Positions 26,683-46,137 of a stretch of DNA of 49,675 nt are shown piece after piece; the first letter of the stretch is position 1, and each line of letters opens with the position of its first letter. Position numbers and translations under genes: made by a program. The DNA comes from Nitrosopumilaceae archaeon (lineage in GTDB: Archaea; Thermoproteota; Nitrososphaeria; Nitrososphaerales; Nitrosopumilaceae): assembly GCA_030038445.1 (NCBI GenBank), contig JASHOW010000039.1, forward strand, positions 1 through 49,675. The letters are read 5' to 3'. The notes under the pieces were generated by a model. That model saw only the letters and a list, made by a program, of their open reading frames with translations, searched no databases and was not told where the DNA came from.

Positions 26683-26699
26683 TTGCTTTTTCTAAATAC

Positions 26700-27662
26700 C
26701 TAGCGCTTATTTTCTGATTGCTTTTCATCAATTATTTTTCTTAAAAGCGCTATATGGCCTGCATTTGTACCACAGCAACCTCCTATGATTCGAATCTTTC
26801 CGTATTGAAAAAGAAAGTCTTTCATTACCTTTGCCATGTCTTCTGGCCCCATCTTATAGACAGCGTGCCCTCCCTGATTCTCAGGCATACCTGCATTTGG
26901 CACTACAAGAAGTGGAAGGTCATTTTGTTCATTTAACCATTGTACACTTGAAACCATCTCAACAGGACCGGTGGAACAATTAAGGCCAAATGCATCAACA
27001 CCCATGTCTGATACTGTGGTGTATGCTGCCTGAACATTTGTTCCAAGCAACATTTTGCCATATTTATCCAGCGTTACATTTGCAATGACTGGAACTTTTT
27101 TTCCTATCTTTTTCATTGCAATGTGACATGCCTCTATGGCCAGTTTTACCTCCAAGATGTCTTGACTTGTCTCAATTAACAGTGCATCAACACCGCCTAG
27201 TACAAGTCCCTCTGCCTGAATTTCAAATGCTTCTAGGATTGTTTCAAGCGAGATTTGTCCAAGCGATGGATCATTTGAGCTTGGCAGAAATCCAGTAGGA
27301 CCCATGGAACCAATTACGTACCTAGGCCTATCGATAAATTCTTGTGTTACTTCAACTGCAAGATTTGCAATTTTTTTATTAAACTCTAATGTTTTATCTC
27401 CATATCCATATTCTTCAAGCTTGAGCTTGTTTGATCCAAAAGTATTGGTCTCTATACAGTCTGCGCCAGCTTTGAGATAGTTTCTATGAATCTCTTTTAT
27501 CCATTGCGGTCTTGTAAAAGAAAGGCCATCGTTAAAACCATCTTTACCGTCTGGAAAGTCTTCTGGTTTTGGATTTAGCTTTTGGATTTCAGTACCCATG
27601 GCGCCATCAAAGAGTACAATTTTCTGTTTCATCAGTTCTACAAGAGGAGTTTTTGCAGTCAA
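26700..27662 (-). CDS. Homocysteine-binding subunit of split methionine synthase
   Basis: 320 residues, equal to the N-terminal barrel of bacterial MetH. The zinc ligands are Cys in FGLNCSTGP and the Cys pair in IIGGCCGTNAGHI. The start VLFDGAMGTEIQKL is typical. It binds homocysteine thiolate and receives the methyl from methylcobalamin on the 838-residue partner. TTG start at 27662; a TTAATACATC stretch (about 27683-27692) lies 20-30 bases upstream as promoter of the operon. Confidence 0.92.
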   Translation of the reverse strand: MTAKTPLVELMKQKIVLFDGAMGTEIQKLNPKPEDFPDGKDGFNDGLSFTRPQWIKEIHRNYLKAGADCIETNTFGSNKLKLEEYGYGDKTLEFNKKIANLAVEVTQEFIDRPRYVIGSMGPTGFLPSSNDPSLGQISLETILEAFEIQAEGLVLGGVDALLIETSQDILEVKLAIEACHIAMKKIGKKVPVIANVTLDKYGKMLLGTNVQAAYTTVSDMGVDAFGLNCSTGPVEMVSSVQWLNEQNDLPLLVVPNAGMPENQGGHAVYKMGPEDMAKVMKDFLFQYGKIRIIGGCCGTNAGHIALLRKIIDEKQSENKR

Positions 27663-28587: not shown

Positions 28588-29433
28588 CTAGCGCTCGATT
28601 GGATTACCAATCATGTTTCCCCACTCAGTCCACGATCCGTCATAGTTTCTTACTTGTGGATAGCCAAGTAGATATTTCAAAACAAACCAAGTATGAGAAG
28701 ATCTTTCTCCTATCCTACAGTAGCAGATGATATCCTTATCAGGTGTTATTCCTTTTGCTTCATAGATCTTCTTTAGTTCTTCAGCAGACTTGAAAGTTCC
28801 ATCTGTATCATTGATTGCAGTTGCCCATGGAATATTTTTTGCTCTTGGTATGTGACCTCCTCTTTGAGCGTGTTCAGACGGATATTCCGGAGGAGCAGCT
28901 ATCTCACCTGTAAATTCCTTTGGTGATCTAACGTCAACTAAAACAGAGTCATAGTTGGATAAGGACCTTCTCACATCATTTAGGTATGCACGTAGTCCCT
29001 CATCTGGTGGCTGAGCTACATACTTTGTCGGTATAATTTTGGGCTCTTCTTTTACATATGGCCTTTTTTCTAGCTCCCATTTTTTCCTGCCACCGTCCAT
29101 AATCTTGATATTATTATGCCCATAATACTTGAATATCCAAAACACAAAAGCTGCAAACCAGTTATTAAAATCGCCATATAGCACAACTGGATCATCGTTT
29201 AAAATTCCAATTCTACCCAGTAGTTCTTCAAACTGAGATTTTCTTATAATGTCACGAGTTACCGGATCATTGATATCACGTTTCCACCATATCAGGTTAG
29301 CACCTGCAACATGGCCTTGTTTGTATGCGTTCTCTGGGTCATAATCTACCTCTATAATTTTTATTACTTTTTTTGAGATATTTTTTGAAACCCAATCAGT
29401 GTCTGTTAAAACATTTGGATTATAATAATTCAT
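28588..29433 (-). CDS. Two-domain rhodanese (thiosulfate/3-mercaptopyruvate sulfurtransferase)
   Basis: 281 residues with two rhodanese domains. The N-terminal inactive one is about 8-130 (VLYGDFNNWFAAFVFWIFKY, DGGRKKWELEKRP). The C-terminal domain has the active-site loop CYCRIGERSSHTW (about residues 236-248), whose cysteine carries the persulfide. CRIGER resembles the CRxG(E/K)(R/T) loops of thiosulfate sulfurtransferases. It would move sulfane sulfur to cyanide or thiols and generate or consume sulfite. Its promoter has TGCA boxes shared with neighbouring genes. Confidence 0.88.
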   Translation of the reverse strand: MNYYNPNVLTDTDWVSKNISKKVIKIIEVDYDPENAYKQGHVAGANLIWWKRDINDPVTRDIIRKSQFEELLGRIGILNDDPVVLYGDFNNWFAAFVFWIFKYYGHNNIKIMDGGRKKWELEKRPYVKEEPKIIPTKYVAQPPDEGLRAYLNDVRRSLSNYDSVLVDVRSPKEFTGEIAAPPEYPSEHAQRGGHIPRAKNIPWATAINDTDGTFKSAEELKKIYEAKGITPDKDIICYCRIGERSSHTWFVLKYLLGYPQVRNYDGSWTEWGNMIGNPIER

Positions 29434-29464: not shown

Positions 29465-29497
29465 AATATAATACAAATCAAATATGCAAATTATGCA
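29465..29497 (-). promoter_or_regulatory. Rhodanese promoter with two TGCA boxes
   Basis: Read on the minus strand: TGCA at 29494-29497 and 29485-29488 (9 bases apart), then TGCATATTTGATTTG and TATTATAT (29466-29473). The same TGCAyaTTTGA..TT..TATA pattern recurs in front of seven other genes up to 36.7 kb. Confidence 0.6.
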
Positions 29498-29553
29498 ATA
29501 ATGGCGCAAGAATATCAGAATGAATTATACCAGATATCACATTACAGACTAAC

Positions 29554-30930
29554 CTATCTTGCAAAGAGAAGCCAAGAGACTACTCCTCCCCATGCTATTG
29601 CAATTACAAGAGATATTGCATAAACTGCAACTGGGGTTCGTAGTTTTATCTCCTTAAATCTTGAGAATTTTGTATGTAGTCCTATTGCAAGAAATGTAAA
29701 TGCGAAAAATGCTGTTCTTAGAGGATCAGTACCAAACGTGACTATTGGCGCAACCGCCTTGGCACCGTCAGCAGTTGAATGAAACGTAAGAACAATTAGC
29801 GATAAAATGACACTGGTGGCAAGATATCCCAGAACGAACTTGGGAAACTTGTACCAGAGGACCTTGGGGCTTGGTTTTACGTTTGGATCTTTCTTGAATT
29901 TATACGCCCATATACTAGCAAGTATGAACGATATCACCCCAATCCATATGTCGATCATTACCTTGGTGACTACTGCTGCACTTAGCACAGAACCATTTGC
30001 CTTCATAACACCATCGGCCACTGATGCACTGGCAGAAGCCGCTCCATCCGTTTTGACGCTCAGTCCAAGCCATACACCAGCAGCATTAGCGTGCGTTGGA
30101 AAGAAATGCGCTGCAACAAATGGCATCACGACAATCTCTACTGCTGAAAAGAGTACAATTATCGACGAGATCACCGTAGAATAGATGGCTGGTGCCTCAA
30201 TGGCTGCTGCTGCCGCTATGGAAGCAGAAACTCCACATACTCCTACTCCCGTAGAAAGAGTTGCAGCGAAATTACGATCAAGACCAAACTTTCTAGAGAT
30301 GAAAAATGCTGCTACCCATACTACCGGAAACGAGAGAAAGGCTGCGGCAAGCATAGTTGGTGCAGTTGTGAGAAAAGTTGTAAATAAGATCTTGGCGCCA
30401 AGCAATACTATAGCTGTCTTGATGAAGAGTTCACCTCGTGCTGAACCCAGTAACCATGACGGTAACTTGATTACATTTGTAGCAATTATTCCAACTACCA
30501 GAGCTATTATGTATCCCACCTCTGCACTCCCTATTGCCTTCACAACTGGGGCATAATTGGAAAGTATCCATATTCCCCATGCGGTAAAGAATATGACTGC
30601 AAATCCCTTAAACCAGTCTTTGGGTCTGGTTCCATTGAATTTATTCACTGGTATCAATAACACTGCAAGAAAGACAAAACTTGCGACCAAACCAATCCAC
30701 GGATCAAATATTTTTGTGGTTAAGGCATGACTGATATCAGACCAAGATTTTGCTGCAGGAATCCATCCGAGTGGAAAGAGACCAAAGTATGAGGGCAAAG
30801 ACAATCCAAATATTATCAGTCCTATCCACACCGCCCACCAATCTTCTTTTTTATAAAGCGATGACCATGATGATACAGATTTTACTACACTATCGTCGTC
30901 ATTTGATCTTTCAGTTGGATTTTCAGTCAT
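29554..30930 (-). CDS. YeiH-family (UPF0324) putative sulfate/sulfite exporter
   Basis: 458 residues with about 11 hydrophobic segments. Family segments: SARGELFIKTAIVLLGAKIL, TLSTGVGVCGVSASIAAAAA, and a DGAASASASVADGVMKANGS stretch. Members belong to the family named putative sulfate exporter (TC 2.A.98), some linked to sulfonate degradation. Next to a rhodanese and a sulfonate-type ABC region, export of sulfite or sulfate produced from organosulfur is the likely role, but this is inferred from context. ATG at 30930; TATA lies at 30965-30972, giving a leader of about ten bases. Confidence 0.85.
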   Translation of the reverse strand: MTENPTERSNDDDSVVKSVSSWSSLYKKEDWWAVWIGLIIFGLSLPSYFGLFPLGWIPAAKSWSDISHALTTKIFDPWIGLVASFVFLAVLLIPVNKFNGTRPKDWFKGFAVIFFTAWGIWILSNYAPVVKAIGSAEVGYIIALVVGIIATNVIKLPSWLLGSARGELFIKTAIVLLGAKILFTTFLTTAPTMLAAAFLSFPVVWVAAFFISRKFGLDRNFAATLSTGVGVCGVSASIAAAAAIEAPAIYSTVISSIIVLFSAVEIVVMPFVAAHFFPTHANAAGVWLGLSVKTDGAASASASVADGVMKANGSVLSAAVVTKVMIDIWIGVISFILASIWAYKFKKDPNVKPSPKVLWYKFPKFVLGYLATSVILSLIVLTFHSTADGAKAVAPIVTFGTDPLRTAFFAFTFLAIGLHTKFSRFKEIKLRTPVAVYAISLVIAIAWGGVVSWLLFAR

Positions 30931-30964
30931 GTTTTCTTATCTTTATCCATAAGAAATTGCACTA

Positions 30965-31008
30965 GATATAAGAAAAGTGAAATGTGCAACTAATACGGAA
31001 AAGACGCA
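30965..31008 (-). promoter_or_regulatory. yeiH promoter with TGCA-type boxes
   Basis: Minus strand: TGCG (31005-31008), a degenerate middle position, TGCA (30985-30988) 20 bases further on, TGCACATTTCACTTTTC, then CTTATATC (30965-30972). Only one perfect TGCA, but the 20-base interval equals 11+9 as in the other promoters. Confidence 0.5.
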
Positions 31009-31066
31009 AAAATTTACAATTGGATTTTTCAGATGAATTTTTGTATTTGTCTAAAATGTCAATGTG

Positions 31067-31107
31067 TGCATATCTTGCATGTATTGCACATTTGACTTCG
31101 GTTATAT
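31067..31107 (+). promoter_or_regulatory. wHTH gene promoter with three TGCA boxes
   Basis: TGCA at 31067-31070, 31076-31079 and 31085-31088 (spacing 9 and 9), followed by TGCACATTTGACTTCGG and TTATAT (31102-31107). The start codon is at 31136. The gene product is a DNA-binding protein, so autoregulation is plausible. Confidence 0.65.
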
Positions 31108-31135
31108 CTTATGTTTAGCTGTTCATGTATAACAC

Positions 31136-31357
31136 ATGTATGACGTGCAAGATAGAATATCTGGAGGACCTGCCACTAAATTCATATATTATATAATAAA
31201 AAATAAGCATCCGATAGATCAGACAGAGTTGATCAACATTACACTTTTACCAAGAAGAACAGTACAAAATGCAATAGATGAACTCATAGAGCAGCAAGTG
31301 ATTGCAGAGAAGCTCGGTTCAGAAGATGCGAGAAAAAGGATATACTACCCGGTATAG
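31136..31357 (+). CDS. Small winged helix-turn-helix protein, paralogue of the ComA-fused domain
   Basis: 73 residues, essentially only a winged helix: GGPATKFIYYIIKNKHPIDQ (helix 1-2), LPRRTVQNAIDELIEQQVIA (recognition helix and turn) and EDARKRIYYPV (wing). By hand alignment, 39 of 64 residues are identical to the C-terminal domain of the protein at 38001-39002. It is divergently transcribed from the YeiH gene, with TGCA boxes between. It probably binds the TGCA boxes, alone or in competition with the longer paralogue; this is inferred. Confidence 0.85.
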   Translation: MYDVQDRISGGPATKFIYYIIKNKHPIDQTELINITLLPRRTVQNAIDELIEQQVIAEKLGSEDARKRIYYPV

Positions 31358-31506
31358 GCTGATACAATTCAAAATTCCTAGAGTTTGTTTCAGATCATAT
31401 TTGCAAGAAATACAGATGATTAATTAAATAGCCATTAATAAAATGAGCAAATTCGTGCCTAAATTGCAGGTTTTAGAGTGGATAGAAAAAGTAGGAGAGA
31501 GCGTGC

Positions 31507-31857
31507 CTAGCGTGTCATGTTTTTGCATTCTTGAGCGCACATTCTACACACATCAGCACATTGTTTGCACTGTTCCATGGTTGAATGCTTTTCGCACTCC
31601 ATAGCACATGCCTCGCACATTTCAGCACACATCATGCAAACTTTTTTTGCATATTCGCTTCCTCGTGCCATACATGTTGCAGTCATTACACACATCATAG
31701 CACAGTCCCGCATCATCATCATGCATCTTGTCAACATACCTACGTTTTTCATATCACACATACATGCAGTGCAGCATGCGTCACATGCTTCAGCACAGGT
31801 ATTGCATGCATCAATACACGTTTGGTATTGCGGATTTTGAAGAGTGGTTTTATTCAT
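31507..31857 (-). CDS. Cys-rich four-helix protein (DUF326, Csp-like copper storage)
   Basis: 116 residues with 22 cysteines by count, most in CXXC/CXXXC spacing along helices (CIDACNTCAEACDACCTACMC, split; CAMMCVMTATC; CAEMCEACAMEC; CADVCRMCAQEC). DUF326/Csp proteins form four-helix bundles whose inward cysteines bind many Cu(I) ions. There is no signal peptide, so this is a cytosolic (Csp3-like) form. The TATATTATA promoter is preceded by four TGCA-type boxes. Ammonia-oxidising archaea depend heavily on copper enzymes, so storage or detoxification fits. Confidence 0.85.
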   Translation of the reverse strand: MNKTTLQNPQYQTCIDACNTCAEACDACCTACMCDMKNVGMLTRCMMMMRDCAMMCVMTATCMARGSEYAKKVCMMCAEMCEACAMECEKHSTMEQCKQCADVCRMCAQECKNMTR

Positions 31858-31873
31858 GAGGAGTTTTTATTCC

Positions 31874-31927
31874 TATAATATATGAGCATATACGCAAAAT
31901 CTGCACATTATCTGCATATCCTGTGCA
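31874..31927 (-). promoter_or_regulatory. DUF326 promoter with four TGCA-type boxes
   Basis: Minus strand order: TGCA 31924-31927, TGCA 31913-31916, TGCA 31902-31905, TGCG 31893-31896 (spacing 11, 11, 9), then TATATTATA (31874-31882) before the ATG at 31857. Confidence 0.6.
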
Positions 31928-32009
31928 TTATTATGATGCCAACAAATTATTATTGAGCACATTTTTACCTGCAAATATAATTATAGATTATAAAACTGAC
32001 AACAGTTTC

Positions 32010-32055
32010 TGCATGAAAAAATAACTAGATTGCACATATCATATTTCTAATATAT
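32010..32055 (+). promoter_or_regulatory. Promoter with two TGCA boxes
   Basis: TGCA at 32010-32013 and 32031-32034 (21 apart), then TGCACATATCATATTTC and TATAT (32050-32055), 20-25 bases before the ATG at 32075. The weaker member of the set. Confidence 0.45.
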
Positions 32056-32074
32056 CAAATCTATTACTTTTCAT

Positions 32075-32830
32075 ATGGATTGCATATTCAAAGAACAAAA
32101 AGAAAATACAGTATATCAACAGTCACTATTTTTACAATTACATTATTGGGTAGATAGTCATATGACATTTGGAGTTTTTGAAGAAATTGAGAAATTAATT
32201 GAATATGTACCAATTGAGTCTAGCAATAATGAAAAAAGCGATGCCAAGTTTCATGCAGGAGTACACATAGATTCAAAATTTTCATTTTATGACGGTGATG
32301 GCGTTTCCACAAGACTTGGCGTATTGGAAGTAATAGATGGAAAAACATATGTTAGTTTTAGAGACATAATTAGACTGTTAAACAAATTTTTAAAAGATGC
32401 CACCATAGAAGAATTAAAAGTTAAAAAGTCAGATTCGCAAAAAGATCATGATCATTCTACTGAGGCATATTTGAAATGTTTGTTGTTTGATTTTTGCCTT
32501 GCAACATTAGATGATGATGTTTTTAATGCAAAATTGTATCTTTTACACTCCATACATTTCATCTGGTTACGCAGGAGATTGCTTTTATTACTGTCAGTGA
32601 TTATCAACGAATCTTTATTTAAAGCAAATTCTGATGTGAGATATTTTCTTGTACGTCTAGCAGTAATAGCAGAACCAGACAACATAGACAGATACTTTGA
32701 CGCCGATAATGGAGGTTTTCATAGAAGATATGTTACATACATCAATGAAATACAAAATCTTTCAACACGCGGATTATCTGATCAGGTGTCTGAGAAAAGA
32801 GATCAATCTCAGATCAAGCATATCAGTTAA
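32075..32830 (+). CDS. Orphan protein of unknown function
   Basis: 251 residues; no family recognised. Mostly hydrophilic, with a C-terminal half that looks helical (YLKCLLFDFCLATLDDDVFN, YLLHSIHFIWLRRRLLLLLS, RYFLVRLAVIAEPDNIDRYF). The stretch around residues 160-185 is hydrophobic enough for one membrane or buried helix. The N-terminal part has a beta-like section (HAGVHIDSKFSFYDGDGVST). Very AT-rich codon use relative to neighbours suggests an accessory gene. The ATG at 32075 is about 22 bases after a TATAT box preceded by TGCA boxes, so it is apparently coregulated with the sulfur genes. Confidence 0.65.
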   Translation: MDCIFKEQKENTVYQQSLFLQLHYWVDSHMTFGVFEEIEKLIEYVPIESSNNEKSDAKFHAGVHIDSKFSFYDGDGVSTRLGVLEVIDGKTYVSFRDIIRLLNKFLKDATIEELKVKKSDSQKDHDHSTEAYLKCLLFDFCLATLDDDVFNAKLYLLHSIHFIWLRRRLLLLLSVIINESLFKANSDVRYFLVRLAVIAEPDNIDRYFDADNGGFHRRYVTYINEIQNLSTRGLSDQVSEKRDQSQIKHIS

Positions 32831-32973
32831 AGTCTAATAATGATTATCAGAGATTATTGCAACTAGAAATTCATAGTAAAGATCAAGTTATGATCAGGTA
32901 TTGATGAATGCCATAGAAAAAATGCATTAATCTTTGCTGTAATTTATATTTTCAATATCTTACATACTCAAAA

Positions 32974-33003
32974 ATAAAAAAAGAGGAGACTTCTTAAAGT
33001 CTC
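32974..33003 (-). terminator. Hairpin terminator overlapping the stop codon
   Basis: Minus strand GAGACTT-TAAG-AAGTCTC (32986-33003), a perfect 7-bp stem whose loop contains the TAA stop of the substrate-binding protein gene, followed by CTCTTTTTTTA. Confidence 0.6.
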
Positions 33004-34229
33004 TGAATTACTTTTGTTTTGGATGCGAACACTATGCCCATAACTGCAATTGCAAGAATAATTGGTGCAATTGGACCAAATTCTGGAACTGCATTGGTGT
33101 TTCCTGCATTTTGGATTGTGGTTGTATTGCTAGATTGCACAGGAGGAATGGATTGGGTTTGACTTGTAGTTTGTGGCTGATAAGTTGGATTGGAAGAAAC
33201 TTCTGACAATCCTTTCTCATCTAACACTTGATTTAACAAAGTAAGATCGTAGATCCCAGTCAGGTCTGGTGGACTATCCAAAAATCCAACCTTGTATGTG
33301 TTGTTAGCTTCCTGATATAATGATGAAGCTATTGGATCGTATGTCAACTCAAGTCTCGAAAAGGCCTCTTTCAACTCTTCATCTGGAAGAGTCTTTCCTG
33401 TAAGCTTGTTGAGTGCAGTATTGAATTCTTGCCTAGCTTGATCTGGGTTATTGTTTATCCAGTTTATTTCGTCTACGTTTGCCTCAAGCAATTCCTTTAT
33501 GACATCAGGATGGGCACTTAGAAATTCAGGTCTTACTACAATATTGGTTACTACAAATTTTCCTCCTGGCCATAGATCTCTTTCATCTACTAAGATCTTT
33601 CCATTTGCTTGATGCAAAAGTACCGTAACCCATGGTTCTGGCACCCATGCACCATCAATGCTTTTCTTTAACATGAGGGTCACAATGTCAGAATTGCTTG
33701 CAGGCTGTACTGTCACAGATCCCCCGTTGTCAGTGGTCTGGTACCCATTGTTTAGAAGATAGACCCTCAGAGCTATGTCTTGGGTGTTACCAAGTTGTGG
33801 CGATGAAAACTTTTTCCCGATAAAATCTTGTGGTGAGTTTATTCCAGAATCATTTCTTACCACAAAGGATGCGCCCCCACTTGCAGTACCAGAAATGATG
33901 CGCAAATCACCACCAGATTTGATAAATCCGTTTATTGCAGGACCTGGTCCTACATATGCAACATCTATCTGATTGGCAAACAACGCTTCAATCTCAGAAG
34001 GCCCTGCATTAAAGACGTAAGGATCTATTGTTGTGTTACCCAGACTTTTCTGAAAGTCTCCATTTTCTATTCCAATCACAACAGGTGCGTGGGTCAGATT
34101 AGGAAAGTATCCTATTCGCAAAGTGCTCAGAGCGCTTGCATAAGCATTATGATCATTTCCAGAAAAAGAGGACATGATCACAACAGCTACAACCATTCCG
34201 AGAATTGCAAATGGTGTTTTTCGTTTCAT
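32994..34229 (-). CDS. SsuA/NrtA-type substrate-binding protein with PEFG-CTERM anchor
   Basis: 411 residues. Signal peptide about 1-32 (ending AYA), then an NMT1/SsuA-like periplasmic-binding fold: LRIGYFPNLTHAPVVIGIEN, GPSEIEALFANQIDVAYVGP, GGASFVVRNDSGINSPQDFI, GAWVPEPWVTVLL. This class binds sulfonates, taurine, nitrate or related anions. A Thr/Gln/Ser linker (about 345-378) leads to VPEFG (381-385), a membrane helix and a basic end, the PEFG-CTERM surface-sorting layout. It has no adjacent permease of its own; the permease/ATPase at 39.0-40.6 kb probably serves it. Promoter with three TGCA boxes. Confidence 0.88.
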   Translation of the reverse strand: MKRKTPFAILGMVVAVVIMSSFSGNDHNAYASALSTLRIGYFPNLTHAPVVIGIENGDFQKSLGNTTIDPYVFNAGPSEIEALFANQIDVAYVGPGPAINGFIKSGGDLRIISGTASGGASFVVRNDSGINSPQDFIGKKFSSPQLGNTQDIALRVYLLNNGYQTTDNGGSVTVQPASNSDIVTLMLKKSIDGAWVPEPWVTVLLHQANGKILVDERDLWPGGKFVVTNIVVRPEFLSAHPDVIKELLEANVDEINWINNNPDQARQEFNTALNKLTGKTLPDEELKEAFSRLELTYDPIASSLYQEANNTYKVGFLDSPPDLTGIYDLTLLNQVLDEKGLSEVSSNPTYQPQTTSQTQSIPPVQSSNTTTIQNAGNTNAVPEFGPIAPIILAIAVMGIVFASKTKVIQRL

Positions 34230-34253
34230 TGGTTTTTTGCCTAGTCACAATGA

Positions 34254-34296
34254 ATATAATGGAATTCAAATGTGCAGTTTATGCAAAATATGTGCA
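34254..34296 (-). promoter_or_regulatory. Substrate-binding-protein promoter with three TGCA boxes
   Basis: Minus strand: TGCA 34293-34296, 34282-34285 and 34273-34276 (spacing 11 and 9), then TGCACATTTGAATTCC and ATTATATT (34253-34260), about 26 bases before ATG 34229. Near-identical to the 31102 and 36660 promoters. Confidence 0.65.
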
Positions 34297-34329
34297 AAAA
34301 AATCTACTCATTGTTGTCTTTCATTTTAT

Positions 34330-34383
34330 TGCAGAATCTGCATGAATCATGCACGTTTTGCATGTTTGAGTCAAATTATATTA
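34330..34383 (+). promoter_or_regulatory. pstS-like promoter with four TGCA boxes
   Basis: TGCA at 34330-34333, 34339-34342, 34350-34353 and 34359-34362 (spacing 9, 11, 9), then TGCATGTTTGAGTC and TTATATTA (34376-34383), about 27 bases before ATG 34406. It is the longest TGCA array in the window and lies back-to-back with the array of the substrate-binding-protein gene. Confidence 0.65.
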
Positions 34384-34405
34384 TTTTTATTTTACAAGCC
34401 CCCCA

Positions 34406-35557
34406 ATGACAAATAAGATCATATCAAGTTCAGCTCTTATGCTGATACTGGTAACATCGATGACTTCATTTAGTGCATATGCTAACGAACCTGATCCACC
34501 ACAAGATGGAGTACAGTACAAATTTTATGAAATCACTTCATCTTCTCTTACATCAATAGTCAACAAATGGATTAACGCATACCATGGATTGTATCAAGGT
34601 GTAACAATCAAGTCTGATCGTGTAAATGATAACAATGCCATATATCAATACACAAAAAGGGTAGTACCTATTGTAAATTCAGATGTTCTACCAAGTTCTA
34701 CCATTGCAAAAAAAATATCAGACGCCTTGATAATACCAAGTTCCATACATACAGTTGCCATCATCTACAACATACCTGAATTCAAACAATCAGGATTGAA
34801 CCTCAATGGAACTGTCTTGGCTGACATCTACCTTGGGAAGATAATATATTGGAATGACCCAGAAATCCAATCCCTTAATCCAAACGTCAACCTGCCAGAT
34901 GCAAGAATCACACCTATACATAGAAATGATCCATCTGGAATAACCTATACCTTTACAGAATACCTTTCTTCCGAGAGTAAAATTTGGAAGATAAGCTATG
35001 GAAAGGGAACTAAAATTTCATGGAAGGCAGGTGAGTCTGATCAGAAATTCTCTGGAGACCCCGTAATAGCATCTGATGTAGCAATTACACCATATTCTAT
35101 AGGTTACTCAGACTTGGGAGATGCAGTGAAATACAAACAAACGTATGCGGCCATACAAAATGGCGACGGTACCAAATTTGTGGTTCCGTCACTTGAAGCA
35201 AGTACGTATGCTGCATCAGCAGTTTCTCAAAATCTCCCTGAAGCAAACAAAGACTGGAGTAAGGTATCCATAGTTAATGCACCGGGCACAGATTCGTATC
35301 CCATTGTAGGATTCAACTACATACTGACTTATCATAATCTTGATAAAATTAAATCGCTAGACAAGAATACGTCAGGTACCATAGTGGATCAAATTTATTG
35401 GGATGTTACTGACGGCCAAAAATATCTTGGGCCGCTGTATCTTGCACAATTGCCTGACAATGTAACAGAGATTGACAAACGCGGACTAGGAGACATAGAT
35501 TTCAAGGGCTCTCAACTGTTCGCATATGACGGATTTGTTGTAGAACCAACACAATAG
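34406..35557 (+). CDS. PstS-like periplasmic (phosphate-type) binding protein, orphan
   Basis: 383 residues with signal peptide (about 1-26, ending AYA). Fold features: SSSLTSIVNKWINAYHG, GTVLADIYLGKIIYWNDPEI (the PstS hinge region), ITPIHRNDPSGITYTFTEYL, and YPIVGFNYILTYH near the end. The usual phosphate-binding RSDxSGTT loop reads RNDPSGIT, and the usual N-terminal GAGSTF-type and SDxPL loops are altered, so the ligand may be another oxyanion. No pstCAB genes are nearby. It is divergent from the sulfonate-type binding protein and has a strong terminator. Confidence 0.82.
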   Translation: MTNKIISSSALMLILVTSMTSFSAYANEPDPPQDGVQYKFYEITSSSLTSIVNKWINAYHGLYQGVTIKSDRVNDNNAIYQYTKRVVPIVNSDVLPSSTIAKKISDALIIPSSIHTVAIIYNIPEFKQSGLNLNGTVLADIYLGKIIYWNDPEIQSLNPNVNLPDARITPIHRNDPSGITYTFTEYLSSESKIWKISYGKGTKISWKAGESDQKFSGDPVIASDVAITPYSIGYSDLGDAVKYKQTYAAIQNGDGTKFVVPSLEASTYAASAVSQNLPEANKDWSKVSIVNAPGTDSYPIVGFNYILTYHNLDKIKSLDKNTSGTIVDQIYWDVTDGQKYLGPLYLAQLPDNVTEIDKRGLGDIDFKGSQLFAYDGFVVEPTQ

Positions 35558-35609
35558 ATATTTGGATATCACAAGTTCAAATCTTGAGATATATCCAAAT
35601 ATTTTTTTT
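35558..35609 (+). terminator. Strong hairpin terminator after pstS-like gene
   Basis: ATATTTGGATAT (35558-35569) and ATATCCAAATAT (35591-35602), a perfect 12-bp inverted repeat with a 21-base loop, run directly into seven more T (35603-35609). Confidence 0.75.
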
Positions 35610-35639
35610 ATACATATAATCATTGAGATATCCCACATC

Positions 35640-35699
35640 AAATACGCATGAGGCCATATGCGCCATTTTGGCACATTCTCATCAGTATGATGCGTATTT
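35640..35699. other. Nested inverted repeats upstream of sufU
   Basis: AAATACGCAT (35640-35649) pairs with ATGCGTATTT (35690-35699). Inside, ATGAG pairs with CTCAT and GCCA with TGGC around a TTT loop, so the whole 60 bases can fold as one interrupted hairpin. It lies between the pstS-like terminator and sufU. It might be a second terminator for leftward transcripts, a structured leader or a protein-binding site; the sequence does not decide. Confidence 0.4.
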
Positions 35700-35783
35700 A
35701 GTTTACATTATATCATGAATTGTACGTGCCATTTATGACAGTCAATTTGAAAATACAAAAACGTACGGTAAGGAGGGATTCAG

Positions 35784-36224
35784 ATGAGTAGTAAAGATAT
35801 TTACAGAGAAATAATATTAGATTATTACAGAAATCCAAGAAATTATGGCATATTAGAACATGCAGATATCTTTAGACACGACAGTAATCCATTATGTGGA
35901 GACGAGATCGAGATATACATAAACATAGTCGATAACAAGGTTTCTGACGTAAAATTCTTAGGTAAAGGATGTGCCATAAGCCAGGCTAGTGCTTCAATAC
36001 TCACTGAACTCATAATGGGAAAAGACTTTGATTTTGTGAAAAAACTCACAAAAGAGAGTATTCTTGAGAATTTAGGTCTGCCAGATCTTGGACCGGCCAG
36101 AATAAAATGCGCTCTACTTTCTTTTAAAGTACTCAAATACGGAGTATATTCATATCTTTCTGATACGATAAAAGATACAGAATCTGCTGAAAAGATTAGA
36201 GATGAAGCACTAGGGCTGTTCTAG
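35784..36224 (+). CDS. sufU: SufU/IscU-type iron-sulfur cluster scaffold
   Basis: 146 residues. The three conserved cysteines are in NPLCGDE, GKGCAISQAS and ARIKCALLS, with the Asp of CGD, as in SufU/IscU proteins that accept persulfide sulfur and hold nascent clusters. No sufBCD or sufS gene adjoins. Unlike most genes here it has a strong ribosome-binding site, AGGAGGG (35771-35777), 6 bases before the ATG, so its mRNA should carry a leader. No TGCA boxes. Its setting beside a rhodanese and Cys-rich proteins fits sulfur handling. Confidence 0.9.
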   Translation: MSSKDIYREIILDYYRNPRNYGILEHADIFRHDSNPLCGDEIEIYINIVDNKVSDVKFLGKGCAISQASASILTELIMGKDFDFVKKLTKESILENLGLPDLGPARIKCALLSFKVLKYGVYSYLSDTIKDTESAEKIRDEALGLF

Positions 36225-36253
36225 TCAAGCATGTATCATAAGATCATGTTTTA

Positions 36254-36272
36254 CATGTCATAATACGACATG
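36254..36272. promoter_or_regulatory. CATGTC-N7-GACATG palindrome
   Basis: Perfect 6-base arms (36254-36259 and 36267-36272) separated by 7 bases, 30 bases after the sufU stop. Operator-like spacing for a dimeric regulator; no gene start is close on its right, so function is uncertain. Confidence 0.35.
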
Positions 36273-36283
36273 AACAAAAAAGG

Positions 36284-36359
36284 ATTAGTGAGATCCTTAT
36301 TGGTAGATATGCACAAAGCGATTGTTAGATACAACGTGACCCACAAGGATCTCACTAAT
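36284..36359. repeat. 15-bp perfect inverted repeat with 46-base interior
   Basis: ATTAGTGAGATCCTT (36284-36298) and AAGGATCTCACTAAT (36345-36359) are exact reverse complements. No T-run follows, and no target-site duplication is evident. Could be a structured RNA stem or the ends of a very small element. Confidence 0.55.
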
Positions 36360-36624
36360 TGTTCCACATGACAAGGCGCACATGCAAAGTAAAAAATTCC
36401 TTTGGATGTGATGCATGTTATTGGATACATTCAAAGAGATTTAAGCAAAGTCAAATGTGCAAAAAAGACAGGAAAGATGCAAAATTTCCCCATAGTAACA
36501 ATGAAGTTATTTTTTATGTAACAAATCAATATTGGAAGTGAAACATTTCGTTAGCAATTGTCGTAATGATTTTTCATTAGATCAAATCCATCATCTAAAT
36601 AATTTTTTAAAATGATAAAAATAA

Positions 36625-36667
36625 CGCATATTTGTGCTATTTTGCACATTTGACTTTGCTTATATTA
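36625..36667 (+). promoter_or_regulatory. Zinc-ribbon gene promoter with TGCA-type boxes
   Basis: CGCA 36625-36628, TGCT 36635-36638, TGCA 36643-36646, then TGCACATTTGACTTTGC and TTATATTA (36660-36667), about 27 bases before ATG 36692. The core matches the 31085-31107 promoter almost base for base. Confidence 0.55.
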
Positions 36668-36691: not shown

Positions 36692-36859
36692 ATGCCAGAC
36701 GAGTCTTGCAGAAAATGTGGCCTTTCGCTTATGAGATACTCCATCTGTGCAGTTTGCAGAAAGGTAACAAAACATGTGTGTATAAGCTGCGGCCTGAAAA
36801 CTACAGAGCAATTGCACATAGATTGCTTTTATGAAGTCAACTTGTTGAAGGCGTACTAG
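36692..36859 (+). CDS. Tiny zinc-ribbon protein
   Basis: 55 residues with three CXXC pairs: CRKCG, CAVCR and CISCG, plus a late Cys and His (HIDCF). It looks like one or two treble-clef/zinc-ribbon knuckles binding Zn. A longer frame begins at 36632, but the TTATATTA box is inside it; ATG 36692 lies about 27 bases after that box. No family recognised. The TGCA promoter puts it with the sulfur/metal genes. Confidence 0.7.
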   Translation: MPDESCRKCGLSLMRYSICAVCRKVTKHVCISCGLKTTEQLHIDCFYEVNLLKAY

Positions 36860-37920
36860 TTTGATATGGTGGGAAGATTCTTTTCTTTGAGCACTTGGTT
36901 TAGTATACTTAGATCAAAAATACCATCAAGGTCAGGTTTGTCATTTCCCAAAAATCCTAATCCATAAGCATTATCTGCTCCCTTGTAAAGGGAGGCTTGT
37001 ATAGGATCATATGTGACATCTATTCTTGAAAACGCCTCTTTTAGTTCAGTAACTGGAAGAGTTTTTCCCGTCAGGTTTTCCAACTGTTCATTAAATATGT
37101 CAATTGCTTGATCCTTGTTATTGTTTATCCATAAAGTCTCATTTACGTGTGCCTCAAGCAATTCTTTTATAACATTAGGATGGTTTTGCAGATAATCAGT
37201 TCTTACAACAATCAAAGATGTAACAAATTTTCCTCCTGGCCACAAGCTCCTTTCATCCACAAAGATTTTTCCATCGGCTTCTTGTTCAATTTTGGTTCCC
37301 CAAGGCTCTGGCAACCATGCACCATCAATATCTTTTTTTACCATCATGGTAAAGATGTCCGCATTTGCCGCATTTACTATTTGTACATTTCCTCCATTGT
37401 CCGAAGTCTTGTATCCATTTTTGAGTAAAAATGACCTTAGTGCAACATCTTGGGTATTTCCAAGTTGAGGCGATGCAAATTTTTTCCCTCCAAGGTCAGT
37501 AACAGAGTTGATTCCGGAATCATTTCTTACCACAAAGACAACTCCTCCACTTGCAGCACCTGCAATTACTCGCAACCCTTGGCCATCAGATTTTATGTAT
37601 CCGTTTATGGCAGGATTTGGTCCAACATATGCAACATCAATCCTGTTTGCAAAGAGTGCTTCTATTGCAGAAGGTCCTGCATTGAATACCTCTGTCTCCA
37701 CCTTAACTCCAGCAATTTCTTTTTGATAATCTCCAGTTCCAAGCCCAATCACTGCCTGTATATGGCTGATATTTGGAAAGTATCCTATTCTTAGAATTTG
37801 ATTTGAAGAGTTTGTTGTCGTATAATGATTTTGGGCAGCCTCTGGTGTTGAAATAAAACTAGCAACAATAACGACTGCAATTATTGCACCAGCAATTCCA
37901 AACTTTACGATTGGATTCAT
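36856..37920 (-). CDS. SsuA/NrtA-type substrate-binding protein (membrane-anchored)
   Basis: 354 residues. N-terminal helix about 7-25 (FGIAGAIIAVVIVASFI) and no C-terminal anchor. Binding fold as in the protein at 32994: LRIGYFPNISHIQAVIGLGT, GPSAIEALFANRIDVAYVGP, VVFVVRNDSGINSVTDLGGK, GAWLPEPWGTKIE. The two are clear paralogues over their whole binding domain, so they probably recognise related ligands. It is the last gene of the ATPase-permease-ComA/wHTH cluster (80 bases after the regulator gene) and also has its own TATA (37947-37954). It overlaps the zinc-ribbon gene end by 4 bases, convergently. Confidence 0.88.
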   Translation of the reverse strand: MNPIVKFGIAGAIIAVVIVASFISTPEAAQNHYTTTNSSNQILRIGYFPNISHIQAVIGLGTGDYQKEIAGVKVETEVFNAGPSAIEALFANRIDVAYVGPNPAINGYIKSDGQGLRVIAGAASGGVVFVVRNDSGINSVTDLGGKKFASPQLGNTQDVALRSFLLKNGYKTSDNGGNVQIVNAANADIFTMMVKKDIDGAWLPEPWGTKIEQEADGKIFVDERSLWPGGKFVTSLIVVRTDYLQNHPNVIKELLEAHVNETLWINNNKDQAIDIFNEQLENLTGKTLPVTELKEAFSRIDVTYDPIQASLYKGADNAYGLGFLGNDKPDLDGIFDLSILNQVLKEKNLPTISN

Positions 37921-37946: not shown

Positions 37947-37965
37947 AATATAACCGAATTCAAAT
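37947..37965 (-). promoter_or_regulatory. TATA box of the second substrate-binding-protein gene
   Basis: Minus strand ATTTGAATTCGGTTATATT: the downstream part of the regional promoter (TTTGAnTTnGGTTATAT) without any TGCA box. About 28 bases before ATG 37920. Confidence 0.45.
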
Positions 37966-38000
37966 TACCCATATAAGACAAGTTTAGTAAGACTAGATTT

Positions 38001-39002
38001 TTAGAGCCATTCTGACTTGATTGGATAGTATACTCGCTTTCTTGCATCGTTTAGGCTGGTCCTCTCTATTATGAGGCCTTGATTTTTCAATTCTTCAACA
38101 GCGCTTTGTACAGTCCTTCTGGGCAGATAGCTCAGGTTCATCAAATCACTTTGCTCTATTGGAAACTTTGTCTTTATTATATAATAGATGAATTTTGCGG
38201 CAGGACCTCCTTCAGGCTCTTCTCGCAGATTTACTGCAGTAAAAGCAGATTTAGACAAGATTCCTCTACGTTCAGATTCAACAGATATAATCGAATCCAC
38301 ATATACCTCAGACAAGTTAACCCGTTCTCCAAATTCTGCTATCAGTGCAAACTGTTGTGTTTCAAGTGGAGCCTCAAAGATGAAAACGCTTGGTGGATAT
38401 TTGTTGGTAAGGGTGGCTACCGTACCCCATTTCACATTTCCATTCTCATCGTAGATTCCAACTCCAAATCCTTGATTTGCTTCCACTATTACCTTTTTTG
38501 AGCCTAGATTTACCAATTCTTCTACTTTAGATAACGTGTCTTCGGTTGTAATCTGATGTCTTGGGTCTCGTTTTCCAACTTTCCATCTTGGTTCCATTTC
38601 TAGCGATGTGACTAGTTCGTTTATCTTCTTCTTTCTTTCAGTGCTCAGATCAACAATGTTCTCGCCAACTTCTATCACATCAAATCCAAGACTGGCAGCC
38701 TCTTTAGCATACCTTTCAAACGAATTTTGTGCTATAGCATATTCCGTGCTTATGTTTCCTGTCGATACTCGGATATCAAGATCATGGTAGAATTTTATTT
38801 TCTTGGTAAGGTTAGCATCAGATGCCAAAAGAGGCAGTGCTCCATTTATCTTGACAACGTCTACAAACGAAGACAGTAGATCCCAGTTTTCTTTGTTGTA
38901 GCTCTCCAGTCTATCAACTACATATGTCAATCCCTCCTTTCTAGGCTTTTTCGAATCTACTCTGTTCTTTACAAGATCGTCAAGCAATTTGTCCTTCACC
39001 AA
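38001..39002 (-). CDS. Phosphosulfolactate synthase (ComA)-like barrel fused to winged helix
   Basis: 333 residues. Residues about 22-250 match the ComA family, which joins sulfite to phosphoenolpyruvate: GLTYVVDRLESYNKENWDLL, FVDVVKING (Lys51), VGKRDPRHQ (Lys144 at the position of the ComA catalytic Lys), VIVEANQGFG and IFEAPLETQQFALIAEFG. Residues 265-333 are a winged helix (LPRRTVQSAVEELKNQGLII, DARKRVYYPI). Either an enzyme with attached DNA-binding domain or a regulator using the barrel to sense sulfite, PEP or a sulfonate. It lies inside a sulfonate-type ABC operon. TTG start; GTG at 38999 is the alternative. Confidence 0.87.
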   Translation of the reverse strand: MVKDKLLDDLVKNRVDSKKPRKEGLTYVVDRLESYNKENWDLLSSFVDVVKINGALPLLASDANLTKKIKFYHDLDIRVSTGNISTEYAIAQNSFERYAKEAASLGFDVIEVGENIVDLSTERKKKINELVTSLEMEPRWKVGKRDPRHQITTEDTLSKVEELVNLGSKKVIVEANQGFGVGIYDENGNVKWGTVATLTNKYPPSVFIFEAPLETQQFALIAEFGERVNLSEVYVDSIISVESERRGILSKSAFTAVNLREEPEGGPAAKFIYYIIKTKFPIEQSDLMNLSYLPRRTVQSAVEELKNQGLIIERTSLNDARKRVYYPIKSEWL

Positions 39003-39017
39003 AAGTTTTGTTCATGG

Positions 39018-39818
39018 TCAACGGTGATGATCAAGCCCCCATTTTCTTCGTACTTTTTCTTCTAGTTTCTGGAGTAAAAATTTGTCTACTACCAAACCTA
39101 TCGCAAATATTGTTATCATGCTAGCAATTACTTCCGACATGTCCAAGAAATCTCTTCCAACAGAAAGAATGTGTCCCAGTCCTACAATTGACATTAGTAT
39201 TTCTGCTGCTATTATTGCATGCCATGCAAATGACCATCCCCCCCTCAATCCAATTATCAGAGATGGAGTAGCAGCAGGAAGTGTAACATACCTAAATAAA
39301 GCAAGTCCCTTTGCCCCCATGTTTTTTGCGGCATCAAGATAGATTGGCGGTATGTTTCTTACACTGCTATAAGTTGACATCATCACAGAAAAGACTGAGC
39401 TCATTACGACTACAAATATGATTCCAAGATCATTAAAACCTATAAACAGGATTGAAAACGGTACCCATGCGACACTTGGAAATGCCAATAGACCAGCCGA
39501 GAATGAGTTAAGTGTCCTACCAAACCCCTTGAATCGTAACATTGCAAGCCCTACAAGCGTGCCCAGAATTATCGAGATTGAAAATCCTGCAACTAGTCTC
39601 TCCAATGTTACCCCAATTCCTATGGGCAGCGACATGTTAGATATTAGCTTTGCAAAAGATTCTGCAACCATGATGGGTGACGGTAGAGATATTTTAGGAA
39701 ATATACCCAACATGAATACAAGCTGCCAAACTCCAACAAAGATTGCTACAAGTAAAGATGCATTTGCTGCGTCGTGTAAGTTTTGTGATTTTTTCTCTGA
39801 GATTATTTTTTCACTCAT
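39018..39818 (-). CDS. ssuC: SsuC/TauC-type ABC transporter permease
   Basis: 266 residues with six membrane segments. The BPD-transport EAA loop is present: YLDAAKNMGAKGLALFRYVT followed by LPAATPSLIIGLRGGWSFAW, typical of the nitrate/sulfonate/taurine permeases. ATG overlaps the ATPase stop (ATGA at 39815-39818), and the ComA-wHTH gene starts 15 bases after its end, so the three are one translationally linked operon. Substrate unproven; sulfonates are favoured by the context. Confidence 0.9.
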   Translation of the reverse strand: MSEKIISEKKSQNLHDAANASLLVAIFVGVWQLVFMLGIFPKISLPSPIMVAESFAKLISNMSLPIGIGVTLERLVAGFSISIILGTLVGLAMLRFKGFGRTLNSFSAGLLAFPSVAWVPFSILFIGFNDLGIIFVVVMSSVFSVMMSTYSSVRNIPPIYLDAAKNMGAKGLALFRYVTLPAATPSLIIGLRGGWSFAWHAIIAAEILMSIVGLGHILSVGRDFLDMSEVIASMITIFAIGLVVDKFLLQKLEEKVRRKWGLDHHR

Positions 39819-40591
39819 TGGACATCATCTTTTATCTGTGCAATGACTTCGTTTTTGAGCGCTTCAACAATTTGATGATAGTATTTCTGGAGATTTTCAT
39901 CTTCAGCAAGTCTTGGTCTTCTGTAATCTATGACAATCTCTTTTTTTATTTTAGAAGGTCTGTTTGTGAAAACTACTACTCTATTTCCAAGAACAACAGA
40001 TTCGGAGATATTATGCGTCACAAATATTATAGTCTTTTTTGTCCTCTCCCAGATAAGCTGGAGCTCAACAAGAAGCAAGTCCCTTGTCTGTGAATCAAGA
40101 GCCGCAAACGGTTCATCCATTAAAAGAATTTCTGGATCCATGGCAAATGCTCTTGCAATGGCTACTCTTTGTTTCATTCCGGTAGACAATTGATACGTAT
40201 ACGAGTCTGCAAACTTTGTAAGCTGCATCATGTCAAGATATCGTTGTGAGATTTGCCTGCGTTCGTCTTTTGGAATACCTGCCATCTTCAGTCCAAATTC
40301 CACATTATCTATAACTTTGAGCCACGGAAAGAGAGCACCTTCTTGAAATACCATAGTTCTGTCCGGCCCAGGAGTAGAAAGAGACTTGCCGTTAAGCAAG
40401 ATCTCGCCAGAGTCTGGTTTTTCAAGACCTGCAGCAATGTGTAGAAATGTGGTCTTGCCACATCCGGAAGGACCTACGATGCAGACAAAGTCTCCTTCCT
40501 GCACATCAAGGTTTAGCCCATCCAGCGCAAGTACCGCGGTGCCATTGTGATCAAAGTGCTTTACAATGTTTTTTGCTTGAAGCTTGGTCAT
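39815..40591 (-). CDS. ssuB: SsuB/TauB-type ABC transporter ATPase
   Basis: 258 residues. Walker A GPSGCGKTTF (40-49), Q-loop in VFQEGALFPWL, signature LSTGMKQRVAIARA, Walker B ILLMDEPFAALD and switch His in VTHNISESV. Closest in style to the nitrate/sulfonate/taurine family. First gene of the operon; a leader of about 60 bases carries an AAGGAG ribosome site 8 bases before the ATG, unlike the leaderless genes nearby. The palindrome at 40653-40669 overlaps its TATA. Confidence 0.92.
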   Translation of the reverse strand: MTKLQAKNIVKHFDHNGTAVLALDGLNLDVQEGDFVCIVGPSGCGKTTFLHIAAGLEKPDSGEILLNGKSLSTPGPDRTMVFQEGALFPWLKVIDNVEFGLKMAGIPKDERRQISQRYLDMMQLTKFADSYTYQLSTGMKQRVAIARAFAMDPEILLMDEPFAALDSQTRDLLLVELQLIWERTKKTIIFVTHNISESVVLGNRVVVFTNRPSKIKKEIVIDYRRPRLAEDENLQKYYHQIVEALKNEVIAQIKDDVQ

Positions 40592-44965: not shown

Positions 44966-46137
44966 CAGAAGACCAATTTATGGGAAATATCTACCAGAGA
45001 TTTCCTGTTACAATAGAGCGTGGCCTAGGAGCTCATGTTTGGGACATCAATGGTAAAGAATACATAGATTGTATGGGAGGCTATGGAGTTGCCCTTGTTG
45101 GTCATTGTAATCCGCGCGTAGTAAAGGCATTAAAGGCGCAGCTTGACAAAATAATTACCGTTCACAGCTCTCTATACAATAAGACAAGAGAAGAGTTTCT
45201 TGAAAAATTAATCAAAATTGCGCCATCTAGTCTTGGCCATGTATACCTCAATAACAGTGGTGCAGAGGCAACTGAAGCTGCAATAAAATTTGCTCGCAAG
45301 TTCACGGGCAAAAAGAAAATGATTGCCATGAACGGCTCATACCACGGAAAAACATTTGGTTCACTCTCAGTTACGTTTAATCAAAAATATCGCAAGGCAT
45401 TTGAGCCTCTTCTTAGTGATGTATCATTTACTCCGTTTGGTGATATTGAGGTACTACGAGCTACAATAACCCCCGATACGGCACTTGTCATATTAGAACC
45501 AATTCAGGGAGAAAGTGGCATTCATGTAGCTCCAGATGGTTTTCTCCAAGAGGTAAGAAAAGTGTGCAATGAGAACGGAGTAGTTTTGATATTTGATGAG
45601 ATTCAATCTGGCCTTGGCAGGACAGGCAAAATGTGGGCAAGCCAACACTGGGATACTGTACCAGACATCATGTGCCTAGCAAAAGGGATTGCTGGCGGTG
45701 TTCCAATGGGAGCAACCCTTGTCAAGCCAGATATTCTTTCATGTATAGGAAAGGGAGAACAGTCGTCTACCTTTGGCGGCAATCCTCTTTCATGTGCAGC
45801 AGGAATTGGAGCAATTGAAGCTTTGACTGAAGACAGATTGGTTGAAAATGCTGCAGTGATGGGTAAGCTATTCCGAGATGGATTTGAGAGATTAAAAGAA
45901 AAACACAAGATAATTCGCGAGGTACGCGGAAAAGGATTGATGATAGGAGTGGAGATGAAGTTTGAAGTAAAAGACATACTGTTTGACGGTATTGCAAATA
46001 ATTTGTTACTTCTTTATTCTGGAAAGAACATACTAAGATTGTTGCCACCTCTTGTTATTTCAGAGTCAGACATAAACAAAGCTTTAGAAACTCTCGATAT
46101 CATATTAACAAGGGAGGAGCAGAGAAGAAATGTCTAG
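44962..46137 (+). CDS. lysJ: LysW-lysine/ornithine aminotransferase (LysJ/ArgD)
   Basis: 391 residues, class III PLP aminotransferase giving LysW-bound lysine or ornithine. Motifs: NNSGAEATEAAIKFAR, NGSYHGKTFGSLSVT, IFDEIQSGLGRTGKMWA, and the PLP lysine in CLAKGIAGGVPMGAT. Translationally coupled to lysZ (ATGA overlap); the Lrp gene begins within its last codons. Confidence 0.93.
   Translation: MTEDQFMGNIYQRFPVTIERGLGAHVWDINGKEYIDCMGGYGVALVGHCNPRVVKALKAQLDKIITVHSSLYNKTREEFLEKLIKIAPSSLGHVYLNNSGAEATEAAIKFARKFTGKKKMIAMNGSYHGKTFGSLSVTFNQKYRKAFEPLLSDVSFTPFGDIEVLRATITPDTALVILEPIQGESGIHVAPDGFLQEVRKVCNENGVVLIFDEIQSGLGRTGKMWASQHWDTVPDIMCLAKGIAGGVPMGATLVKPDILSCIGKGEQSSTFGGNPLSCAAGIGAIEALTEDRLVENAAVMGKLFRDGFERLKEKHKIIREVRGKGLMIGVEMKFEVKDILFDGIANNLLLLYSGKNILRLLPPLVISESDINKALETLDIILTREEQRRNV

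Follow-up and report, generated by a model that had tools for sequence, protein, structure and literature searches.

A conserved array of TGCA boxes marks a putative sulfur regulon in a Nitrosopumilaceae archaeon, with a ComA-derived winged-helix protein as candidate regulator

Do the TGCA boxes that recur upstream of a cluster of genes in a Nitrosopumilaceae archaeon form a single operator, and if so, which protein reads it? Ammonia-oxidizing archaea are among the most abundant nitrifiers, and to our knowledge their transcription control is largely uncharacterized. We addressed this question in one 49.7-kb stretch of DNA (contig C71, hereafter the window) from a 1.49-Mb genome that is 89.7% complete (G000), using a survey set of 399 genomes of the class for comparison. 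The comparison identifies a rare composite element at the promoters of a small gene island, and points to a fusion of a ComA-like triosephosphate isomerase (TIM) barrel with a C-terminal winged helix-turn-helix (wHTH), here called ComA-wHTH, as the candidate regulator.

A first-pass annotation of the window had described four phased TGCA arrays, and all four are present: 9-11-9 at 34330/34339/34350/34359, 11-9 on the minus strand at 34293/34282/34273, 9-9 at 31067/31076/31085, and 11-11-9, in which three TGCA boxes (31924/31913/31902) are joined by a TGCG at about 31893. Such phasing is not equally common elsewhere in the genome. Genome-wide pattern searches returned 16 occurrences of the triple arrangement TGCA-N5..7-TGCA-N5..7-TGCA in 1.49 Mb, 5 of which fall inside the 3.3 kb between 31067 and 34362. 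The composite element consists of a box, 20 bp, the core and the TATA sequence. Its downstream part, TTGCAYATTTGA-N6-TTATA, has seven copies in the genome when up to one mismatch is allowed, all within a 7.2-kb island (29467-36664), and the reversed control of this pattern has none.

The same architecture was recovered from a second family. The window's own family, Nitrosopumilaceae, is denoted f1, and f14 is the family with the named records Nitrososphaeraceae/Nitrososphaera. A weight matrix trained on f14 promoters only and then run on the window picked exactly the same seven sites, all between 29489 and 36642, with scores of 11-32; the next-best position in the window scored 5.1 and the best of ten shuffled windows 2.9. 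This cross-family result indicates that the element is conserved and specific rather than a generic promoter feature, and it bears out the earlier remark that other promoters in the window lack the array. Extra boxes, whose offsets were counted from the core TGCA and played no part in site selection, lie at -9, -20 and -29 in 9/16, 12/16 and 3/16 of the f1 sites and in 7/24, 14/24 and 16/24 of the f14 sites (0.2-0.5 in shuffles). These offsets are the 9-11-9 phasing noticed by the earlier reader, now in a second family.

The proposed spacing of 9 and 11 is thus the main rule, from which the zinc-ribbon promoter (10/8) and the promoter of the orphan gene orf251 (about 21) depart. The TATA sequence, which had been placed 12-15 bases beyond the core, instead stands at a fixed distance, with TTATAT beginning 18 bp after the core start. 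As TTATAT also begins 30-41 bp ahead of six start codons, it is probably the real TATA box, with leaders that are short or absent. Each TGCA-N5-TGCA pair forms a 13-bp palindrome, and the pairs recur every 20 bp, which corresponds to two helical turns. TGCA occurs often as a tetramer (421 times in the window), and its clusters could in principle have arisen by chance where the DNA is AT-rich, or could belong to a promoter motif common to the whole phylum. Given the genome-wide rarity, the fixed offsets, the cross-family prediction and the near-zero reversed controls, the probability left to this explanation is negligible.

Membership of the island was then defined by comparison with G067 and G079, the closest relatives of the window genome that carry the same genes. 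Boxes are present at all eight promoters listed in the first-pass annotation. The cores of two of them, DUF326 (TTGCGTATATGC) and orf251 (TTGCACATATCA), are weaker and are supported by their orthologues; two members had escaped the list, iscU with its core at 35690 and, at 36462, a minus-strand promoter that is an orphan. In G067 the element stands ahead of the rhodanese, SBP1 (substrate-binding protein 1), PstS-like, zinc-ribbon, small wHTH and YeiH-like genes, and a weaker form precedes iscU, DUF326, orf251 and ssuB. The rhodanese (core), SBP1, PstS-like, zinc-ribbon and orphan elements are retained there, the last in the same place, as are TGCA(-20) and the core of the YeiH-like promoter and the core and -9 box of the DUF326 promoter. 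The G067 orf251 orthologue (58% identity; 45% in G373 of the Nitrososphaeraceae) has CTGCATATATGA with TGCA(-20), the promoter of the iscU orthologue reaches a matrix score of 35, and the zinc-ribbon-like protein is 89% identical.

Conservation extends into f14, where at least ten genomes have the element directly ahead of an ssuB, ssuC or binding-protein gene beside ComA-wHTH. It also lies upstream of the rhodanese genes of G361 and G373, and a 7-kb contig of G373 (C154, locus L229) holds several elements together with homologues of DUF326, orf251 and rhodanese. The DUF326-type variant core recurs in Nitrososphaeraceae ssuC promoters, and small Cys-rich (CxxC) proteins follow elements in G361, G387, G391 and G392. 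Related species share one operator at corresponding promoters, as expected of a regulon. Taken together, these comparisons make it almost certain that the island is a regulon sharing one operator. The earlier proposal of an undescribed local regulon with phased boxes is upheld by its rarity in the genome, its conservation and its cross-family prediction, except that other genomes share the regulon. Full-text literature searches found no description of the element or of a ComA-winged-helix regulator. Two sets of matches were set aside: five core copies in G069 (C18), which resemble a repeated protein-coding unit, and lone one-mismatch cores in ComA-negative genomes, which mostly come without a -20 box and were taken as chance.

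Which protein binds the operator is best approached through co-occurrence. ComA-wHTH is encoded in 68 of the 399 genomes and, within f1, in just G000, G067 and G079, which are also the only f1 genomes with a perfect core. Of the 399 genomes, 11 contain a mismatch-free composite element, and all 11 have ComA-wHTH (Fisher p ~2e-9, not phylogeny-corrected; the genomes are related, so p overstates their independence). With at most one mismatch, it occurs in 19 of the 68 ComA-wHTH genomes versus 2 of the 331 others (own tally), and perfect elements usually lie within a few kb of the ComA-wHTH gene. Based on this pattern, ComA-wHTH is quite probably the binder of the operator. The regulon extends from one island to two families, and its putative assignment to ComA-wHTH is well supported by co-occurrence. 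The winged-helix binder suggested earlier thus remains plausible, with the comparative evidence favoring the fusion protein (38001-39002), which lies outside the coordinates then noted, over the small wHTH of the island.

This small wHTH would be the main regulator in the lineage under an alternative in which ComA-wHTH is an enzyme whose wHTH serves an unrelated use. Its gene lies inside the island, its own promoter carries a strong 9-9 array, and G067 has both the gene and the element. Clear stand-alone copies, however, are found only in G000 and G067, while in G079, and in those Nitrososphaeraceae genomes that were examined, the element and ComA-wHTH are present but a clear small wHTH is not, so it cannot be the general binder. 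The two wHTH domains are moreover homologous, with the same recognition-helix signature, a near-invariant RRTVQ helix, and we consider this alternative improbable. Neither is a confident member of MarR_2 (PF12802; 22.0 bits for the small wHTH and 18.0 for ComA-wHTH, below the gathering score of 27). From its sequence, the small wHTH is a paralogue of the ComA-wHTH DNA-binding domain and itself a target of the regulon. Matches to it in most Nitrosopumilaceae were rejected as orthologues; they are NAD-kinase-wHTH fusions with about 30% identity. As a separate observation, most Nitrosopumilaceae genomes (for example at L063, L064, L066 and L087) encode an NAD kinase whose C-terminal winged helix resembles, by descent, the one in ComA-wHTH, and this second enzyme-wHTH fusion may be a regulator too.

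Several findings weigh against ComA-wHTH as the regulator of all these sites. G066 (96% complete) and G390 (79% complete) have the element without a detected ComA-wHTH. Strong elements lie at 6743 (+) and 8390 (-) of L226 (G066 C15), one of them upstream of ssuB, and those of G390 lie at ssuC and a binding-protein gene; judging from these positions, the elements of both genomes appear genuine. Conversely, a clear element is missing in some ComA-wHTH genomes (much of genus g50; f2, f3 and f17), suggesting that specificity has shifted or that the domain has another role there. Within the window, the matrix scan gave no element at the ssuB promoter, and the SBP2 promoter is degenerate; its orthologue in G079 has the full element, including the box lost in the window.

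The G066 and G390 cases would also fit an Lrp/AsnC-type or other non-local regulator, with ComA-wHTH merely a co-inherited neighbor of the sulfonate transporter. It counts further against our assignment that archaeal Lrp dimers bind palindromes of the 13-bp class, in clusters spaced two or three helical turns apart, and activate from just upstream of the B recognition element (BRE) (PMC2995911). An Lrp/AsnC protein with a ligand domain is indeed encoded in the window (46130-46549), but its gene sits in a cluster for amino-acid biosynthesis, away from the island, and the matrix scan found no element there. Furthermore, the element is limited to few genomes and tracks ComA-wHTH, and no Lrp domain was detected in ComA-wHTH or the small wHTH at E <= 0.01. 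A non-local regulator of this kind therefore appears rather unlikely.

ComA is phosphosulfolactate synthase, which makes phosphosulfolactate from phosphoenolpyruvate (PEP) and sulfite. In ComA-wHTH, a sensor region of about residues 17-249 is followed by a linker (249-261, flexible in the structural model) and the wHTH (267-327), which is predicted with moderate-to-high confidence to have the winged-helix fold, with three helices (H267-278, H284-291, H295-307) and a wing of two strands (E311-315, E323-327). The model keeps the TIM-barrel fold of solved ComA (1qwg; TMt 0.87, E 6e-19), and the protein passes the PF02679 (ComA) cut-off of 25.2 with 199.7 bits. In contrast, it falls short of the ComA equivalog TIGR03849 (153.5 bits vs a cut-off of 280), and the motifs FGWGTS, GGTLFE and RESG, common to the Methanocaldococcus jannaschii and Bacillus subtilis ComA proteins, are replaced in the window protein and in most Nitrososphaeraceae. 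The loss of these motifs and the missed equivalog cut-off suggest that the ComA domain is now a metabolite sensor. Homologues in f17 retain these motifs for the most part, a pattern that looks like an enzyme-to-sensor series.

We propose that each TGCA-N5-TGCA pair would take one winged-helix dimer, with the C-terminal winged helix of ComA-wHTH contacting the operator and the TIM barrel sensing a sulfur metabolite, a choice of signal that we hold to be somewhat better than an even bet. Based on ComA chemistry and the target genes, candidate ligands would be sulfite, PEP, a sulfonate or organosulfonate, or a phospho-sulfonate. Adjacent dimers would bind cooperatively on one DNA face beside transcription factor B (TFB) and the TATA-binding protein (TBP) and so activate transcription, and the 73-residue small wHTH, a DNA-binding domain alone, would probably compete with or tune ComA-wHTH at the same sites. 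The regulon would serve sulfonate uptake, through SsuA-type proteins and, in other genomes, SsuB/C, as well as sulfur handling (rhodanese, YeiH-like); it would further supply accessory proteins (the Cys-rich DUF326 protein, IscU, small zinc ribbons and the PstS-like protein) and one small RNA.

The arrays sit directly upstream of BRE/TATA and extend upstream only, as archaeal activator sites do, and by this analogy the bound factor likely activates. MarR-like winged helices are often repressors, and only 6 bp separate the core end from the TATA box, so that a bound protein could overlap the BRE and block TFB/TBP until a sulfur signal frees the promoter. Archaeal repressor sites usually overlap or follow BRE/TATA, in contrast to the present arrays, which makes repression unlikely, if the most serious of the competing readings. 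Taken as a whole, the explanation that combines the regulon, ComA-wHTH as its regulator, sensing and activation seems likely on balance.

Known systems offer partial parallels. BirA-type regulators likewise fuse a metabolic enzyme fold to a winged helix and couple ligand state to DNA binding; here, by contrast, the sensor is ComA-derived with its enzyme signature apparently lost, and the wHTH is C-terminal. The operator of the CopG ribbon-helix-helix repressor likewise repeats TGCA boxes along a single face of the DNA. A CopG-type binder was considered and set aside, as the associated protein here is a winged helix and we noticed no gene for a ribbon-helix-helix protein in the island. The archaeal Lrp activators Ptr2, Ss-LrpB and LysM, of a class that is often small-molecule-responsive, have a dimer site just upstream of the BRE and more sites two to three turns off (PMC2995911), whereas our candidate combines a ComA TIM barrel with a MarR-like wHTH and has no Lrp ligand-binding domain. 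EarA of the Methanococcus maripaludis archaellum operon uses four short repeated boxes of 6 bp each, directly upstream of BRE/TATA (PMC5512572); its boxes, genes and regulator differ, and it has no described enzyme-like sensor domain. TrmBL1 of Pyrococcus furiosus controls a transporter regulon through a palindromic motif and acts as an activator from sites upstream of the promoter, but belongs to another protein family and recognizes TATCAC-N5-GTGATA (PMC4706686).

In the ComA-wHTH tree, the f1 sequences form one clade (100/100) among f14 sequences, where some deep forks are weak. This placement and the rarity of the protein in f1 suggest that the system entered f1 by lateral transfer. A fuller scenario, which we offer tentatively and rate somewhat short of an even chance, is that a ComA-type enzyme became a sulfur-metabolite-sensing activator multimerizing on 20-bp TGCA-N5-TGCA repeats beside TBP/TFB, took control of a small RNA and of the scavenging of sulfonates, and passed, together with its operators, from the Nitrososphaeraceae of soil to a few members of the Nitrosopumilaceae. 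It would probably add an example of an enzyme that evolution has turned into a one-component regulator, and other lineages of the class seem to preserve intermediates. What the analysis offers is an operator defined in concrete terms, a candidate regulator identified by name, a set of targets conserved in two families and a hypothesis about the ligand; it also predicts organic sulfonates (e.g. taurine) as a regulated resource.

Table 1. Genes, promoters and a predicted RNA of the island and its flank, with positions in the window
Feature	Position	Strand	Basis or composition
Two-domain rhodanese (sulfurtransferase)	28588..29433	-	PF00581 1e-35
YeiH-like putative sulfate/sulfite exporter	29554..30930	-	PF03601 7e-29; TIGR00698 match below cut-off
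Small winged-helix protein, 73 aa	31136..31357	+	56% identity to ComA-wHTH C-terminus
DUF326/Csp-like Cys-rich protein	31507..31857	-	PF03860; TIGR04401 Csp1-type below cut-off
orf251, orphan 251-aa protein	32075..32830	+	relatives in G067 and G373 regulon clusters
SBP1, aliphatic-sulfonate-type substrate-binding protein	32994..34229	-	TIGR01728 SsuA_fam 203.1 bits, cut-off 163.5
PstS-type substrate-binding protein	34406..35557	+	TIGR00975 217 bits, cut-off 205
IscU-type iron-sulfur (Fe-S) scaffold	35784..36224	+	PF01592 7e-30
Small zinc-ribbon-like protein, 55 aa	36692..36859	+	CxxC pairs
SBP2, aliphatic-sulfonate-type substrate-binding protein	36856..37920	-	TIGR01728 219.6 bits, cut-off 163.5
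ComA-wHTH fusion, proposed regulator	38001..39002	-	PF02679 199.7 bits, 6.6e-59
SsuC/SsuB-type permease + ATPase, adjoining comA-wHTH	39018..40591	-	PF00528, PF00005
Rhodanese promoter	29466..29508	-	TGCG(-20), TGCA(-9), core TTGCATATTTGA, TTATAT; 0 mismatches to composite
YeiH-like promoter	30966..31008	-	TGCG(-20), core TTGCACATTTCA, TTATAT
Small wHTH promoter	31065..31107	+	TGCA 31067, 31076, 31085; core 31084; TTATAT
DUF326 promoter	31874..31927	-	TGCA 31924, 31913, 31902; core TTGCGTATATGC at 31897; ATTATA
orf251 promoter	32010..32053	+	TGCA 32010; core TTGCACATATCA at 32030; TAATAT
SBP1 promoter	34254..34296	-	TGCA(-20), TGCA(-9), core CTGCACATTTGA, TTATAT; 0 mismatches to composite
PstS-like promoter	34330..34381	+	TGCA(-29), (-20), (-9), core TTGCATGTTTGA, TTATAT
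iscU promoter, probable	35658..35713	+	TGCG/GGCA boxes, core ATGCGTATTTAG at 35690, TTATAT
Orphan promoter	36439..36481	-	TGCA(-20), core TTGCACATTTGA, TTAAAT
Zinc-ribbon promoter	36623..36665	+	core TTGCACATTTGA at 36642, TTATAT
SBP2 promoter, degenerate	37948..37980	-	TTTGA-N6-TTATAT (37971) kept, TGCA box lost; matrix score 2.7
Predicted non-coding RNA	36270..36438	-	hairpin AAUUAGUGAGAUC..GAUCUCACUAAU, then U tract

The genes of the island (Table 1) bear on the sulfur/metal theme first suggested for it. Its sulfur half holds, with SsuA-type proteins past the NCBIfam cut-off, SsuB/SsuC, rhodanese, the YeiH-like protein and the ComA-derived protein; its metal half has no backing beyond IscU, the small zinc-ribbon proteins and the DUF326/Csp-like Cys-rich protein. 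Profile searches of Pfam and NCBIfam gave no match for orf251 or for the zinc-ribbon-like protein.

Comparison with G067 revealed no conserved open reading frame downstream of the orphan element at 36462. The region 36438-36270 is predicted to fold more stably than any of its shuffled versions (z = -5.2), and its hairpin (AATTAGTGAGATC..) and U tract are retained in G067, where the reading frame is broken; a protein-coding reading was rejected on that ground. The region has no Rfam match, and matches of significant length were confined to G000 and G067. From these features we infer a small RNA of the regulon.

Some further observations were made in the relatives. Two more genes of G067 have the element ahead of them, a winged-helix gene and one for a PAS-domain histidine kinase; the latter adjoins iscU and ssuB homologues, and its element is at 9872 (-) of L055. 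The L229 cluster of G373 also holds a carbonic-anhydrase-like gene and small Cys-rich proteins. Variant elements with TACA for TGCA lie ahead of small Cys-rich genes in genus g58 (L176, L177, L224), which suggests drift of binding specificity. Finally, next to the sulfur island of the window, methionine synthase is split in two genes (24166-27662), one for the homocysteine methyltransferase part and one for the B12/pterin part.

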